A stretch of 64,000 nt of DNA from Lota lota (taxonomy: Eukaryota > Chordata > Actinopteri > Gadiformes > Lotidae): the NCBI GenBank assembly GCA_026745465.1, contig JACYXH010000401.1:259501-323500 (forward strand), in the 5' to 3' direction. Made by a program: the position numbers and the translations under genes. This document shows, piece after piece, positions 389 through 63,155 of the stretch (its first letter is position 1; every line of letters begins with the position of its first letter). The notes below the pieces were generated by a model. That model did no database searches. It was not told the DNA's origin and saw nothing but the letters and a program-made list of their open reading frames with translations.

Positions 389-22621
<22,233 letters not shown>

Positions 22622-30925: not shown

Positions 30926-42207
<11,282 letters not shown>

Positions 42208-42287
42208 TAAGAGGTCCAATTCGATTGGGAGAAGAATACAATCCTCCGATGGCAGTCTGGCAGTCGTCAACTTTGAATTTAAGGAAC

Positions 42288-42893
42288 CTGAAAACGGAAA
42301 TAATAAACGTTGTCAGAAAAAGCGTCGACGCGATGTGGCCACTGTGACAGTGCCGAGGCCGCGTCTTTTATTGTAGGCGGTCCACTTATATAAAAAAAAA
42401 AACATCCAAAACGATATGCTAAGGTTTTGATAACATTATAAATATACCTTTACGCTGTCTTGAAAGGAACAATGTACCTTACCCTTTGATGTCTTTATGT
42501 ATCGTGTCCTGTGTGACTCTTCCTACGGTCAGGTGAGTGACTCAACCTGGGAAATACAGGAAGTGAAATTGGACTCCCCAGGTACGCGGATGCCACGCCC
42601 TTCAAGTTGGGTCGTCAAATGTCCTTTGTAACCTTAAATACGTCTTCAAACACCAAAGTCAACAGTACTATTGACTTGTTGAGATCGCTGCCGTGCTCTC
42701 CATTCAACGTTAAAAGAGTACTTGAAATAGTTCCGATCAGATCATAATCGCTTAATTGTGTGACGCATGAGTAGGTATGGCATTAACACGTCATTGAAAT
42801 GTTATTTTAAGGTTGGACCCATAAACCATGTCCCATTACTTTTCACATCGTGTGGCTATACCTGGAGGACAGTGTACATTCGATCTCTCTCTC

Positions 42894-51907: not shown

Positions 51908-54900
51908 TCATGTCCCCTTCTTCTTCGTTTTCCTCTTGGGTGGAGAGTAGCTTGTCGTACGATGCTCCTTCCGTTCATATTTGTCATGGCCTTCCCTGAG
52001 GAATTAACGGATTTGTGATTGCTAATTCATCACTCTGAATACTTTGTGCACACACATGATGGTACTGCAAAATGTATCTGGGTCATCATCATCCACATGC
52101 CAAACCATTCGTTTATAAATAAATTCACATGAATAAATGTATTTCTCCAATTTGTGCAGAGAAACTGAATGTTGTGCCACGTGTATGCAATGAATACACA
52201 GGGAAGCCAATTACCGGAAGCAGCGGCCGCAGTACAGGTCTCCATCACAGGTATGACATCGTATAGAGGCATCTTCGTTACATATGCAGCACCAGGGAAG
52301 TTCCTCCTCATCACTACCACCACCATCATCACTGTCCAATGGCTGCGGCTTTTTTACAACGGCAGCTGGACCCTGAATACACATGGAACAGACCAAAAGC
52401 ATTATGTATTCATTCTAATACATATCCTGTGTGTTGGACTTGAATGACAAGTGTTGGAACCTCAAGTTGCCCTGTACCGTTTTTTTGAAAGGGGCTTTCT
52501 TGTTAGTGGTCTTTGGACCACTGTGCTCAAAGGGTATGTTGTAGCCACTGGCCTCATCCAATGCAGCCTCTTCCGAAAGCTGGAAATGAAATAAATAGAA
52601 TGTTAGAAGATAAAAATAGAGGCCAAATAGCTTAATAGAACTGATGAGCCAAGGGGCAAAACATTACCCCGCTATTAATATTAATGACTTCATAGAAAAC
52701 ATTGGCCTGTGTTCAACATCACCAATGAAATGAACAAAATCTTGATCCGTTTTCTAAAGTTTACATAAGGGCACCAGACTGCAAAACAAAAACTTTAACT
52801 TAAAGACTGTTTCACATCTCAGATTGTATTTTCAATTGATGATCAAAAATGTGTACAAAAGACAGAAGGTAATAATTGATGCACTCACATGGCATAATTA
52901 ACCAAAAATAAAGGAAGGAGGTTATAACCTAAATGTATGGCGCCCACAAACAGGTATGAAAGTGATTTTATATCATATTATTATTATTATGTCTATAATC
53001 ACATATAATTATGTGTATCTTAACTCTCCCTTTACTCCCGACCTGTTTTAAGACTCTTTGAACAGCCTCTTCCTCAGTCTCCTCATCGCTGTCGGGATGC
53101 TGGATGTCCTCCATGGTGACTAATAACGAGATATATATATAGATATTAGATATAAATATGGAAGAACAGCCAGTGAAAGGGAGTAACGTAAAGCTGTTGA
53201 GACGCTGACCGAGGCGTTCACACATTGCACTAAGCCAACTTTTTCCCTCCGTTAACTCACAGTAATTCTGCACATCCATCATATTAGTCTGGATTACAAA
53301 TGATGTCACAGAAGTGCGCCAGCCAGCAAATCTGCAGGGAAAGGTCGAATAGAGGGAGCTGTGCCCACGAGAGCCTAGCGCCTGAATGCTTGGACCCCAT
53401 ACGGCTTTTTGAAACGGATTCTGTAGACCCACCTCTTCCAAGAACAAGAACAAAGGAATTTTGATGATGAAGATGACCACTGATCATATCAGAGCATATC
53501 TGAGATCTAACTATTAAGCACCAATAACAAACATCTTTATGATTACCACTCTGCATTCTGTCCAGTGGTATTGCTAGAAAGTTGTTCATGCAGCATAATT
53601 ATCCAAAATGTTGATCGTATGCCTTGATTTGGATAAAAGCATCTGCTAAACGACTCAAATATAATGAAACAAACCACAATGTACTACCCTTGTCTGGATC
53701 CAGTCCTTTCAGTAGGGCCAGCCTCTTGGCCATCTGTAGAACGTGCTCCTGGGATCCCTGCTCCTGCCTCAGCTCCCTCATGGCTTCCTCCAGCACACGG
53801 CTCTTCTCAGCCTCCAGTACCCCGCTCTTCTCAGCCTCCAGTACCCCTTGGTCCTGGTCCAGGTTCACCTCCAGCCCACATGCCTCCCCCTTGTTCAGGT
53901 TGTTCAGGAGGCTGTCGTCCACATCTACAGATTGATAGGGCATAATAATAGGTCAGAGTTTAATAATTAACACTCAATGGTCCAACATAACCATGCGTAA
54001 CCAAGCCAAGATAAATAATCTCTCCTGCGAGATAGCTTTTGTTAACATGACCAAGTCAGTAAAGTCACCACGTATTCTTTGGTAACCATGGAAGGCATCT
54101 GAGGCTATTGTACAGATTTGTTTAAAACAAAAATTAAGAACTAAAGAAAAAACTATAAACTAGAGGATTCCTATCTAGCTACCGTCAGCGTCTTGTTGGT
54201 TGTCGATAGCAACTTCCTCTGTCATCTGTGTTAATAGATCATTGGCTCGTTCTGTCTGGGTTCTGTTATCAGGGGGCCGATGCACCTGTTCACAAACAAA
54301 CAACAATGTAAAGTAATTTTTAATAAGAGTGACAGAGTGGCTCTCAGGTTACAAAGTGTAATAAACATAAATTAAAAGTGCTTGGCAATTTGTGACTTGT
54401 GAATTATTGAAAAGGGTTTTAAGGGAGCACTTGAGCTATCGGAGGTCGATATGTGGGCCTCTATGAAAGTGTGTGGTTTGACTTACAGGAGGAGGGGCTT
54501 GGGTGGGTGGAGGCCTGCCCTGTAAGGCCGCCAAGCGGTCTTCCATGTCCCTGGCAGAAGGCACCGGCTTACTGGGAGCTCTTAAGGCAGCAAGGCGTGA
54601 CTCAATCTCCCTCTCAGAAGGAATGGACCCTGGATTAAACAAAAATAGGTAAAATTGGTAAAAAAAAATTTAAACAACCACGAAACCCTAGCTTTATCAT
54701 TATTAGATAGAGATTGTGTGAGTTATAACAAAATATTTTATTACTTGGTTTGGGGTCTTCCTTGAGTTTCTGAAGCCTTGCAGCAATAGCTTGGTCTTCT
54801 TTACTGAGGCCTTTGGTGGGTACACTGTCAATGTCGACATTTCTAGCACCGCCCTGGCCATGAGTCACTTCAGATCCGTGCTGTTTGGCTTCCAATGCAG

Positions 54901-55424
54901 CAACTCGCCTGGGGGAGGATTCCAGGAAAAAGGAGTGACGTCATGTATGGTGTTCAACTGAAAGATGAATCAAGTGCAATTGCATGTGATTTTTAATTGC
55001 ATACTGACTTCTTGTAGTTCTCTGGGGGGGACCATTTCCCATCATCACTAGGTGTTTCTGAACTATTAAAAACATACAAGGAATAAGACATCGCATGTTT
55101 TCATGCGGTTTCTTGTTCTTTTGGGAAACTACAATAGTTTTTTGTATTTACCCAGTCAGATTGCCATGACACCGCTTGCAGACCTTCTGCTTCGTGTTGC
55201 CACAGCGAGGCACCACTGCGCTAAAGTTGAGACAATTTGAGCAGAAGGAACGCCCGCAGTTTTTACAGCCCAGCTATGAAGTCCACGAAGAGAAAACAGA
55301 CTTTAGGGGAGAAAAAGATCGCATATGAATATACTGATAGCTCCTTATGTTTCATATGAATAACCATACCTCCTTCCGGAAAAGAGTAAATTTAGATGCA
55401 CAACAGAAACACCGGTTGTCCATG
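51908..55424 (-). CDS. zfyve19: Abscission/NoCut checkpoint regulator ANCHR (zinc finger FYVE-type 19)
   Basis: Retains VPS4 at the midbody to delay abscission. Eleven exons: 55424-55370, 55273-55152, 55062-55009, 54908-54745, 54629-54487, 54285-54183, 53924-53688, 53119-53043, 52579-52478, 52372-52215, 51995-51908. Parts: N-terminal FYVE-like finger ([14 protein letters not shown], then [12 protein letters not shown] and [11 protein letters not shown]), two MIT-interacting motifs ([16 protein letters not shown] and [13 protein letters not shown]), a Glu-rich coiled segment, and a C-terminal B-box-like finger ([30 protein letters not shown]). All phases close to 433 residues if one base is removed from exon 1; as given, a T5 run (A5 at 55380-55384) turns the expected LFRKE into LFPEG and breaks the frame. 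A 24-bp exact tandem duplication in exon 7 repeats eight residues. Neighbour bub1b is head-to-head. Confidence 0.93.
53800..53847 (-). repeat. zfyve19: Two exact 24-bp tandem copies inside zfyve19 exon 7
   Basis: 53800-53823 and 53824-53847 are identical; on the coding strand each encodes a GVLEAEKS-type octapeptide. A third, diverged copy (RVLEEA) follows. In frame, so it lengthens the acidic helical linker without breaking the protein. Confidence 0.9.
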
Positions 55425-55690
55425 TTGAAACGCGAAAAGCTTCACGTAAGATTGAAGGTATGATTTTTCGAATACTCCATCAAACCATTTAGTGGTTGTC
55501 TACACTCTTTAGACAACACCACTTTTATCTCCATCGACTCCAAAAAATGTCTAATAATAGGAAGTACGCCGGAAAGTCATGTACCATTCGATTACATAGT
55601 TCCGGTATTTGTTCGTCCAATCAGCTTTCTCTAAATTCTCTCGCGGTTCCCTTTCAAAACATACAGAGCCAGTACGGTCGGAACTGAAGA
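55425..55690. promoter_or_regulatory. Bidirectional promoter of zfyve19 and the bub1b homologue
   Basis: The two genes diverge from this segment. It has a canonical CCAATCAG box (55617-55624) and ETS-like CCGGAA sites in both orientations (near 55568 and 55602), with no TATA box, as is common for cell-cycle genes. A likely 5'-UTR exon of the bub1b homologue ends at 55731 (CTTAAG/GTTTGT) and is joined to the start-codon exon, whose acceptor ends at 56114. Confidence 0.6.
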
Positions 55691-56131: not shown

Positions 56132-58863
56132 ATGGCAGAGGGCGGAGATGCAGAATGGGAGCTTAGTAAAGAAAACATCCAGCCGCTGAAGCGGGGTCGG
56201 GACATATCGGTGCTGCACCAGGCGCTCAGTCAGCAGCAGGACGGACCCAGCTCTGCTGTCTGCCAACAGAAACAGTAAGTCATGGGAGCAAGAACAAACA
56301 TTGACCTACAGGTCGAGTAATAAGTCAGTTGTAGTGTGCACATGTTTGCCCAAATGAAGGACATGAATTGACACAGGTTGACAAGGGATTTCTTTTTATG
56401 TGTGGTTTTTCTTATCCAGGGCCTTTGAGTCTGAACTGAGAATATATAATGGAGATGATCCACTTGATGTTTGGGATCGGTAAGATTAGTCATTTTCAAT
56501 AATATTAACCTTATATAATTAGCAATAATATAACTATAGTTATGTTTGATATCTGTGTGAGCTTGTCTGACGTTTGTTTGACGCATGTTTTCCAAACAGA
56601 TACGTAAAATGGACTGAACAAACATTTCCTCAGGGTGGGAAGGAGAGCAACCTCCCTGTGTTGTTGAAGCAAGCCGTGACACAATTCACAGAGGAGAAAA
56701 AATACCACAATGACCCGCGCTACGTAGACCTCTGGATCAAATTTGTAAGTTAGCTGCAAGTTATTTTATTACATTTCTATGCTCCTTCTTTGACATGCTT
56801 TATTTAGTTCATGTTAGCTCATACATGTATTTGTCTCATCAGGCAAAGATTTGCCCAGAGCCCCTGGAGAGCTACAGGTACATGCAGGCACAGGGGGTAG
56901 GAGGGTCCCAGGCTAGCTTCTACATTGCCTGGTCAGAGGAATATGAGAGACTGGGCAACTCTCGCGAGGCAGACAAGGTCTACCAAGAAGGCTTCAACAA
57001 CTGTGCTGAACCGAGGGATAAGCTCCTGCAGTATCACAAGTAGGAATATGACATGCCTCCTTTTATCCAATGCGTATCACCATGAGTGCATACATGTTAA
57101 TCATAACCCTACAGTGTTTCCCTTACATGCATGCAGCAGTGGCCCAGCACGGCCGCTGGATTACCAGCGCCCAGTGCAATATTTAAAAACATACATATGT
57201 GCCCCCTGCTGCACGCCCCTCAATTGTTACTTTGTCATTATTGTCATTGGAGAAAGATTGTGGAAAATACTGACAGCAAAATATTGTTCTGCTATAAAAT
57301 GAAAAAAAGGGCATTATTTTAGGTGGCATTACCCAGGAGCTACACTGGGGACGGCTACAAATTGCAAACTGAAAAATATATTTGTGCAACTATACCAAAA
57401 CAAAGTGTCACATGCGCATAGTGCACTCACGTGCTATTTCTTGTTATATTGTTAAACCATTGTATGAGACCTTCTGTTCAAAACCTCTCTGTGCACATCA
57501 GCACAGTGCATAACACATCAGCACCGCTCCGGGGAAAGGTTGTACACTGCCCTATAACCCTGTCAGCGTCTACCAGTTGAGCTACACATGCAAGCTGAAA
57601 AATGTATTTAATTATGGTTTCCTGAATTACTACTTCTAGGGCCCTGCAAGCACGCGTGTCACGACAGGTGATGACCACCATGGCGGAAAAAGACAGTGAC
57701 GAAGAGAGCAATGAACCCGAGCGACTGTCTCTCGTAGATCTCAAACACAGGGGAAAGAAAAAGGCCATTGTACCGATCAACAGAGCTCAGGCTGCTCTCG
57801 GCCGTAAGTACATGCATGAACGCTTACCTCGGCTATTCACCTTGTAAATTGTTTGCCACCTGTATGTTGCTACAAAATGCTCTTGACAGTCTTTAACAGC
57901 AGGTCACGTGAAGCCTGAAAACAATGGTTCTTATTTTGCCTAAGCACTGGATCTCTGATGTTAATCTTAAATATGTCATATCCGTTGGCCCCTGGGCAGA
58001 TAATTCCAGAGGCTTGCAGTCTCAGGGGGCCCCAGCACCGAGTGGGGCCAAGAACAGTTGCTTCGTGGTCTTTGACGAGAACAAGGGTCCGGCGGCTGTG
58101 ACCTCCGAACCCAAGTGGGAGCCTTGGGCTGCCCCTCCCCCCGGGAGGGCCAAGGAGAATGCGCAGAAGCCAGAGAAGTGGTGCGATGTGAAGGTATGAA
58201 GAAAGAGGCCGGTGCAGGGCTGTGTTAGCTGGTAGAACCTCTGTGTGTTGCTATTGTTATATGGGATCCATCTCATCCAACGCCGTGTCTGTTTTGGTCC
58301 TGCCGTAGATGGCCCAGAAGTCCCGATTCGGTCACAAAATCGTACCACCGCCTCTCACAAAACCCACTTTCCAGCCATATGTGGAAGAATCGGACGAGCC
58401 TCCCAGAATGTGAGTTCTAATATTACACATTTCATTTGTATAAACATGTTGTGAATGAGGTTTTCCGAAGAACAGTATCTATTTTTGTATCAATCGCAAG
58501 CACAATTGTATCTTATTTTCCCCAATGATCACTCCCATGGTCTTTGTTCCCTTTCTTGGTGTGTTTTCCTGTGATCCCAGGACTCCATGTAAGATCAACT
58601 CGGCGGTGAACACGGTGCTGTCGGCCCGTAAGCCACGTCTAGAGGAGACCCCTTTAAAGAGGCTCCAGGAACACAGACACCTGCAGCAGCAGCAAGAGAC
58701 ACAGGGGGGGAAGCTGCAGGAGAAGAACATGTACTGCAAGGAGCTGCTCTTCAGCGGCGCCACCGAGTTCTGCTTTGAGGAATTGCGGGCCGAGCGCTAC
58801 CGCAAAAAGATGGCGCAGGTGACCCAACCCGGCCAATCGAGCGCTGATCCCACCAAACACTGA
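56132..58863 (+). CDS. bub1b: Short BubR1/Mad3-type spindle checkpoint protein lacking a kinase domain
   Basis: Mitotic checkpoint complex subunit that inhibits APC/C-Cdc20. Eight coding exons: 56132-56274, 56420-56479, 56600-56744, 56843-57039, 57640-57803, 58000-58193, 58309-58409, 58581-58863; 428 residues, all phases closing. It shows the first KEN box (WELSKENIQPLKRGRD), the TPR domain (NGDDPLDVWDRYVKWTEQ, PQGGKESNLPVLLKQA, FYIAWSEEYERLGNSREADK), the second KEN box (GRAKENAQKPEKW), VMTP-like MTPCKINSAVNTVLSARKP, and the GLEBS/Bub3-binding motif (MYCKELLFSGATEFCFEELR, AERYRKKM). It then ends QVTQPGQSSADPTKH-stop, with AATAAA at 59211. Vertebrate BubR1 is about 1,050 residues with KARD and a C-terminal (pseudo)kinase; none of that is visible in the next 5 kb. 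Either a Mad3-like paralogue or a short isoform reading past a possible donor at 58819. Confidence 0.92.
57040..57639 (+). other. bub1b intron 4 with repeat-like sequence
   Basis: Begins repeat-like at acagtgtttcccttacatgc (about 57111), a word common at ends of fish hAT-type repeats, with a loosely inverted counterpart near 57530-57550. The minus strand around 57590-57560 carries a tRNA-like A box (TAGCTCAACTGGTAGAC), suggesting a tRNA-derived SINE head. Neither assignment is secure. Confidence 0.35.
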
Positions 58864-59210
58864 GACTGAGTTTTAATTATTTGATATTCATTGTGGATAT
58901 GGCTGTGAAGAAAAAGTCCATATCATCACTATGTATCTTGTGACGAAGATGTTTTATGTTTTATACCCATAGAAGTGTTGTACATTTTAAAGTGGTGAAG
59001 AAGCAATTGGGAGGATGTCAAATATTGAGGAAAAATGAAAATATTCACTGCAGAGGTCATTCACAGGAATATTGTTCTTTTTCGGTTCTCTAAACCATTG
59101 CTAAATATATTGGCTGCTAAAAAGAATATGTTTTAGAATCCAAGGGTTGCGCTTACCCTTCGGTCTTTGAATCTTTTCGATCTAGTACCTTTCTATGTTA
59201 CGTGGTACAT

Positions 59211-59216
59211 AATAAA
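59211..59216 (+). terminator. bub1b: Polyadenylation signal of the bub1b homologue
   Basis: AATAAA followed by gtgttatttttttttttgg, a T/G-rich downstream element, about 350 bases after the stop. Confidence 0.7.

Positions 59217-62984: not shown

Positions 62985-63155
<171 letters not shown>

Follow-up and report, generated by a model that had tools for sequence, protein, structure and literature searches.

An apparently Mad3-like bub1b gene without a kinase half, and a second BubR1 copy, in one fish genome

Duplication of BUBR1 in teleost fishes (duplication no. 7) and its fission into N- and C-terminal products have been described by Tromer et al. (2016; PMC5204127), and in the available text of that account the C-terminal product is kept only towards zebrafish. 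The 64,000-nucleotide stretch of fish DNA analysed here (the window) carries a BubR1-type gene, bub1b, that resembles the described system in being a duplicated fish BUBR1 with N- and C-terminal products. The window gene encodes the N-terminal motifs of BUBR1 and appears to lack the C-terminal KARD and (pseudo)kinase, and a second BubR1 gene, on contig C249 of the same genome, bears a C-terminal half. It is probable that the window gene represents a slow-evolving copy acting as a Mad3-like inhibitor of the anaphase-promoting complex/cyclosome (APC/C) and the C249 gene a kinetochore copy. Unlike in the published account, as far as its available text goes (PMC5204127), the C-terminal copy persists in this probably cod-like genome, and it does so with KEN1, TPR and GLEBS. 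The whole analysis covers one genome in one assembly (575 Mb, 867 contigs).

Human BUBR1 is likewise similar to the window protein, its residues 19-427 being aligned end to end and the N-terminal motifs occurring in the same order; the single human gene adds a heterodimer helix, an internal Cdc20 motif, KARD and a pseudokinase, whereas in this fish a separate gene, that of C249, carries such parts. Fungal Mad3 also combines KEN1 and TPR without a kinase, and residues 10-181 of the window protein match PDB entry 4aez_C (5.6e-25), Schizosaccharomyces pombe Mad3. Fungal Mad3 is of independent origin (PMC5204127). The window gene differs from it in clustering with vertebrate BUBR1 and in lying in a block with a PAK6-like gene, zfyve19 and spint1. 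To judge from the available text of PMC5204127, a fish BUBR1 without its C-terminal half is already in print in substance; the new detail is the state of the partner copy, which suggests that a C-terminal copy can keep N-terminal domains.

The window gene and the search for its kinase half

The window gene occupies positions 56132-58863 of the plus strand and comprises eight exons that join in frame across seven introns, each with GT-AG borders, giving a coding sequence of 1287 nt (428 codons and a stop). The features of the gene are as follows, with motifs named after PMC5204127.

56132..58863, plus strand: Mad3-like bub1b, eight exons, 428 residues, without the kinase half (exon chain, Pfam, PDB alignment)
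56132-56274, 56420-56479, 56600-56744, 56843-57039, plus strand: exons 1-4 (GT-AG chain)
57640-57803, 58000-58193, 58309-58409, 58581-58863, plus strand: exons 5-8 (GT-AG chain)
56168..56176, plus strand: KEN1 box, residues 13-15 (aligned with human BUBR1)
56264..56992, plus strand: TPR (Mad3_BUB1_I), residues 45-166, exons 1-4 (Pfam 7.6e-44)
57722..57733, plus strand: destruction box (D-box) RLSL, residues 210-213 (aligned with human RSTL)
58062..58079, plus strand: ABBA1 FVVFDE, residues 258-263 (alignment, pattern match)
58152..58160, plus strand: KEN2 box, residues 288-290, between tryptophans 276/279 and 297 (alignment)
58369..58386, plus strand: ABBA2 FQPYVE, residues 322-327 (alignment, pattern match)
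58729..58809, plus strand: GLEBS Bub3-binding motif, residues 385-411 (residue-by-residue alignment with human BUBR1)
58819..58824, plus strand: possible donor GTGACC (GCAG/GTGACC), no downstream partner exon found
58861..58863, plus strand: stop codon TGA (reading frame)
59211..59216, plus strand: polyadenylation signal AATAAA, 348 nt 3′ of the stop

In a phmmer search of the PDB, residues 5-415 of the window protein align with residues 19-427 of human BUBR1 (E 4.4e-112, 378.5 bits). The TPR is, as far as sequence can tell, orthologous to BUBR1 rather than to BUB1, the TPR alone scoring 200 bits against BUBR1 (3si5) and 104 bits against BUB1 (4a1g) in a PDB search. The first-pass annotation of this DNA, made from the letters alone, had described an eight-exon, 428-residue Mad3-like bub1b with both KEN boxes, TPR and GLEBS and no kinase; the exon chain, the PDB alignment and the Pfam TPR match all bear this out, and its coordinates, the GT at 58819 and a polyadenylation signal some 350 bases past the stop were likewise correct.

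The motifs of the window protein follow the BUBR1 order (KEN1, TPR, D-box, ABBA1, KEN2, ABBA2, GLEBS), and in shuffled versions of the protein at least two ABBA motifs arose in 2 of 5000 cases and at least two KEN boxes in 35 of 5000. The Pfam model for GLEBS (Mad3_BUB1_II) alone remains under its cut-off (E 0.095; 13.3 bits versus 21), and the motif is therefore called from the human BUBR1 alignment, in which 17 of 27 residues are identical to human 397-423 and both glutamates matching human E409 and E413 are kept. Change of these two human residues abolishes Bub3 binding and impairs incorporation into the mitotic checkpoint complex (MCC), according to the available text of PMC4337726. The protein stops 17 residues past the GLEBS stretch. 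Its motif content, judged by sequence, is that of a Mad3-type protein: KEN1 and the ABBA1-KEN2-ABBA2 series, without a kinase domain.

The KARD and (pseudo)kinase that might be expected downstream appear to be missing. When 12 BubR1 C-terminal queries, nine from the C249 gene and three from human BUBR1, were compared with positions 58001-74000 (window numbering), the best match had an E of 0.024 over 12 residues. The searched interval spans 15,137 bases past the stop and takes in PAK6-like coding exons near 70231, so that the expected site of the kinase exons is present and contains none that could be detected. In the controls, each of the nine C249-derived queries matches its own locus, whereas the queries from human BUBR1 detect the C249 copy at E 1.4e-6, 9.7e-5 and 0.009. 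Across the genome, all seven matches of BubR1 C-terminal exon peptides fall on contig C249; of the 12 matches to the window protein, eight fall within its own gene, three within the BubR1 gene of C249 and one within bub1, and the Mad3/BUB1 Pfam model identifies three genes only (six exon matches). These genome-wide searches score the best candidates only, and a copy inside an assembly gap would escape them.

These results bear on two other explanations of the short protein. The first-pass annotation had left room for a short isoform of a full-length BubR1, with kinase exons joined from the donor at 58819. The GT there does have a fair upstream context, but no BubR1 C-terminal exon was found in 58001-74000, and the C-terminal exons found genome-wide are only on C249, which has N-terminal exons of its own; this explanation has become very improbable. 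An assembly error or a mutation of a single individual could also truncate a gene, and only a single assembly is available, but the downstream neighbour is collinear. Since the gap before the PAK6-like gene holds no detectable kinase exon, a single false stop would be insufficient as an explanation, and such an error or mutation is scarcely credible.

The second BubR1 copy on contig C249

The second BubR1 gene lies on the minus strand of contig C249, from 1420792 to about 1411755. Its nine N-terminal exons have GT-AG borders and join into a stop-free frame of 1172 nt, and exons 2, 3 and 4 (60, 145 and 197 nt) are identical in length to window exons 2-4. The best human match of the nine-exon model is BUBR1 (1.8e-34; BUB1 1.5e-21). 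The copy retains KEN1 (with neighbouring residues changed), TPR and GLEBS with both glutamates, and a charged, helix-like stretch follows directly after GLEBS. Exon 5 measures 116 nt, versus 164 nt in the window gene, and the human D-box position reads RRSQ or RSQV, with no RxxL; exon 6 measures 121 nt, versus 194 nt, and is without ABBA1 and KEN2. Exon 7 and ABBA2 were not found in the C249 interval, and the window and human exon 6/7 peptides gave a best E of 0.058 against C249 1419300-1418000 (tblastn). An intronic KEN tripeptide (C249 1418451) was considered as a hidden KEN2; the open stretch around it is only 19 codons long and lacks a GT ahead of its stop, and the tripeptide was treated as chance. 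An ABBA-like FHIFTD persists further along the gene, near the human internal Cdc20 site, as a weak match (equalled in 94 of 5000 shuffles).

The region 3′ of the nine exons contains an exon resembling CDII, one resembling KARD (LSPIKE) and kinase-like exons. The joined C-terminal exon peptides score 4.1e-18 against BUBR1 versus about 2e-5 against BUB1. The KARD part falls outside the printed C-terminal alignment; the motif is called from its LSPI-E pattern and from the letters of human KARD. The seven C-terminal exon matches are collinear, with a single TAG, at an exon edge, and the catalytic-loop and DFG positions of the kinase-like exons appear, by eye, to be degenerate. Between the kinase-like exons lies a tandem repeat, HSLFTPHCSSHLLAL (L007, about 2728-3591). 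A second, full-length bub1b elsewhere in the genome had been suggested as something to look for. The C249 gene answers to this in bearing the C-terminal half, but it is no ordinary full-length copy, since the parts that it has lost largely complement those missing from the window gene.

The relationship of the copies was examined in a tree of five TPR sequences. The window and C249 sequences cluster together at 81/82, under the 95/80 support mark, inside a BUBR1 group (98/96) and apart from BUB1. The TPR sequences thus place the duplication inside the BubR1 line, later than its separation from Bub1, and not in a Bub1/BubR1 ancestor, the known route to Mad3 that the first-pass annotation had cited. 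The C249 branch is almost four-fold longer than that of the window gene (0.91 versus 0.24), and a relative-rate test counts 37 changes on C249 versus 10 in the window gene over 144 columns (p 8e-5).

Faster evolution of the C249 copy, the loss of several motifs and of exon 7, and the eroded appearance (by eye) of the catalytic-loop region would all be expected of a decaying pseudogene, in which case the window gene would be the sole working BubR1 and the function of the kinase half and KARD would be lost. Nine consecutive exons remain in frame with GT-AG borders and without a stop, however, the seven C-terminal matches show none save the TAG at an exon edge, and KEN1, both GLEBS glutamates and the KARD-like LSPIKE persist, so that a pseudogene is considered unlikely.

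A bub1 gene proper, with a kinase domain (Pkinase 1.6e-19), was also detected on the same strand of C249, at 1346k-1357k; about 64 kb separate the TPR exons of the two genes. Human BUB1 and BUB1B sit on different chromosomes, and the linkage seen here may be chance or the trace of an old tandem origin.

A proposed division of labour

From their motif content, the window protein appears to be a soluble APC/C inhibitor and the C249 protein a kinetochore scaffold; the suggestion in the first-pass annotation of a paralogue specialised for APC/C inhibition agrees with the motifs of the former. Under the proposed scheme, the window protein would work like yeast Mad3, binding Bub3, docking Cdc20-Mad2 via KEN1 and TPR, and holding the MCC on APC/C-Cdc20 via ABBA1-KEN2-ABBA2 and the D-box. 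Without the post-GLEBS helix, KARD and pseudokinase, it would be neither recruited to kinetochores by Bub1 nor able to deliver PP2A-B56. The C249 copy, with its helix-like stretch after GLEBS, KARD-like motif and kinase-like exons and without KEN2, ABBA1 and ABBA2, would most likely serve the kinetochore.

Results from human cells resemble both copies. In the available text of PMC4337726, human BubR1 lacking residues 432-484 (the predicted post-GLEBS helix) shows no binding to Bub1 or kinetochores and less B56, and it restores a robust checkpoint, with MCC and APC/C binding comparable to wild type. Because the human alignment of the window protein ends at 427, this protein may be in effect a natural counterpart of that mutant. 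The ABBA-KEN2-ABBA cassette is in turn needed for MCC binding to APC/C-Cdc20 and for the checkpoint, according to the available texts of PMC5179498 and PMC5204127. Since the human mutant and the lost-cassette results resemble the two copies, a division of labour would be the most economical reading.

Several observations weigh against this reading. KEN1 and TPR are kept on C249, so that the division is incomplete, and an RKRL (residue 215 of the model), 10 residues past the lost D-box position, means that D-box function on C249 may or may not have been lost. The C-terminal pieces of C249 score 14.0, 9.4 and 41.8 bits, the first two being weak; chaining covers exons 1-9, the C-terminal exons being placed by similarity, and the KARD peptide had no match in the PDB at E up to 10. 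With one genome only, an extra copy could lie in a gap, and the loss may be old or species-specific.

A stronger form of the division of labour, for which the chances seem about even, is that in a cod-like fish a kinetochore-independent Mad3 alone arrests the APC/C, and that the C249 protein is checkpoint-dead, acting only as a Bub1-bound scaffold of PP2A-B56 and pseudokinase. If true, the MAD/BUB split would have been repeated inside the MAD branch of vertebrates, and nature would have performed a separation-of-function experiment. Engineered mutants in human cells ask whether the pseudokinase and KARD must share a molecule with APC/C inhibition, and a fish with both jobs on separate genes would partly answer by evolution that the two are separable.

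Neighbouring genes and genomic context

Both BubR1 loci have the same gene order in mirrored orientation: a PLEKHG-like gene (so named from its RhoGEF domain), SPINT1, BUB1B and a PAK6-like gene, the downstream neighbour, with a P21-binding domain. The neighbours annotated within the window are as follows.

52968..55430 (approximate; the far end is based on open reading frames only), minus strand: zfyve19, head-to-head neighbour of bub1b, FYVE zinc finger in the first two exons (Pfam FYVE 4.2e-9)
30926..42312 (approximate), minus strand: spint1, the duplicate of which adjoins the C249 BubR1 gene (MANEC 6e-29, Kunitz 2.4e-18)

The first-pass annotation had likewise named zfyve19 as the neighbour. 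In human 15q15.1, SPINT1, PPP1R14D and ZFYVE19 are neighbours and BUB1B adjoins PAK6. Comparison with ten 10-kb loci of C249 (low-complexity rows dropped) gave no match to zfyve19 or to the ppp1r14d-like gene. The pair was most likely made by a block duplication in the fish lineage, and most likely by a whole-genome duplication, because shared blocks are what such a duplication leaves.

The type of fish bears on how far the C-terminal copy extends. A search for MHC II beta (major histocompatibility complex) gave 0 matches genome-wide, although it gave no signal anywhere and hence is not proof of absence. Gadiformes, pipefishes and Lophius are none of them close to zebrafish. Among 81 teleosts, MHC II is missing only in Gadiformes, two pipefishes and Lophius, according to the available text of PMC6832177. 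With the MHC I count added (all 100 candidates scored were matches, a lower bound), the host is thus probably cod-like, the high MHC I number being what speaks against the pipefishes and Lophius. The best PDB matches of haemoglobin, by comparison, are chains from fishes of several orders and favour no single one. With a cod-like host the C-terminal BubR1 copy would extend beyond the zebrafish lineage. Taken together with its retained N-terminal domains, this hints at a wider occurrence of the duplicate with the C-terminal half and at an origin other than clean fission. No paper describing complementary loss in two fish BubR1 copies was found, most subscription journals being out of reach, and no treatment of the fish BUBR1 duplication besides PMC5204127 was found among titles and the beginnings of abstracts.

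Zebrafish bub1ba is listed among genes with chromatin opening in spermatocytes II in the available text of PMC12759076. At least 100 MHC I exon matches were detected in the genome, mostly clustered (contigs C654, C823 and C169). The window itself contains 19 pure CA/GT repeats of at least 20 bases, amounting to 1652 bases per 64 kb (e.g. 63040-63150).
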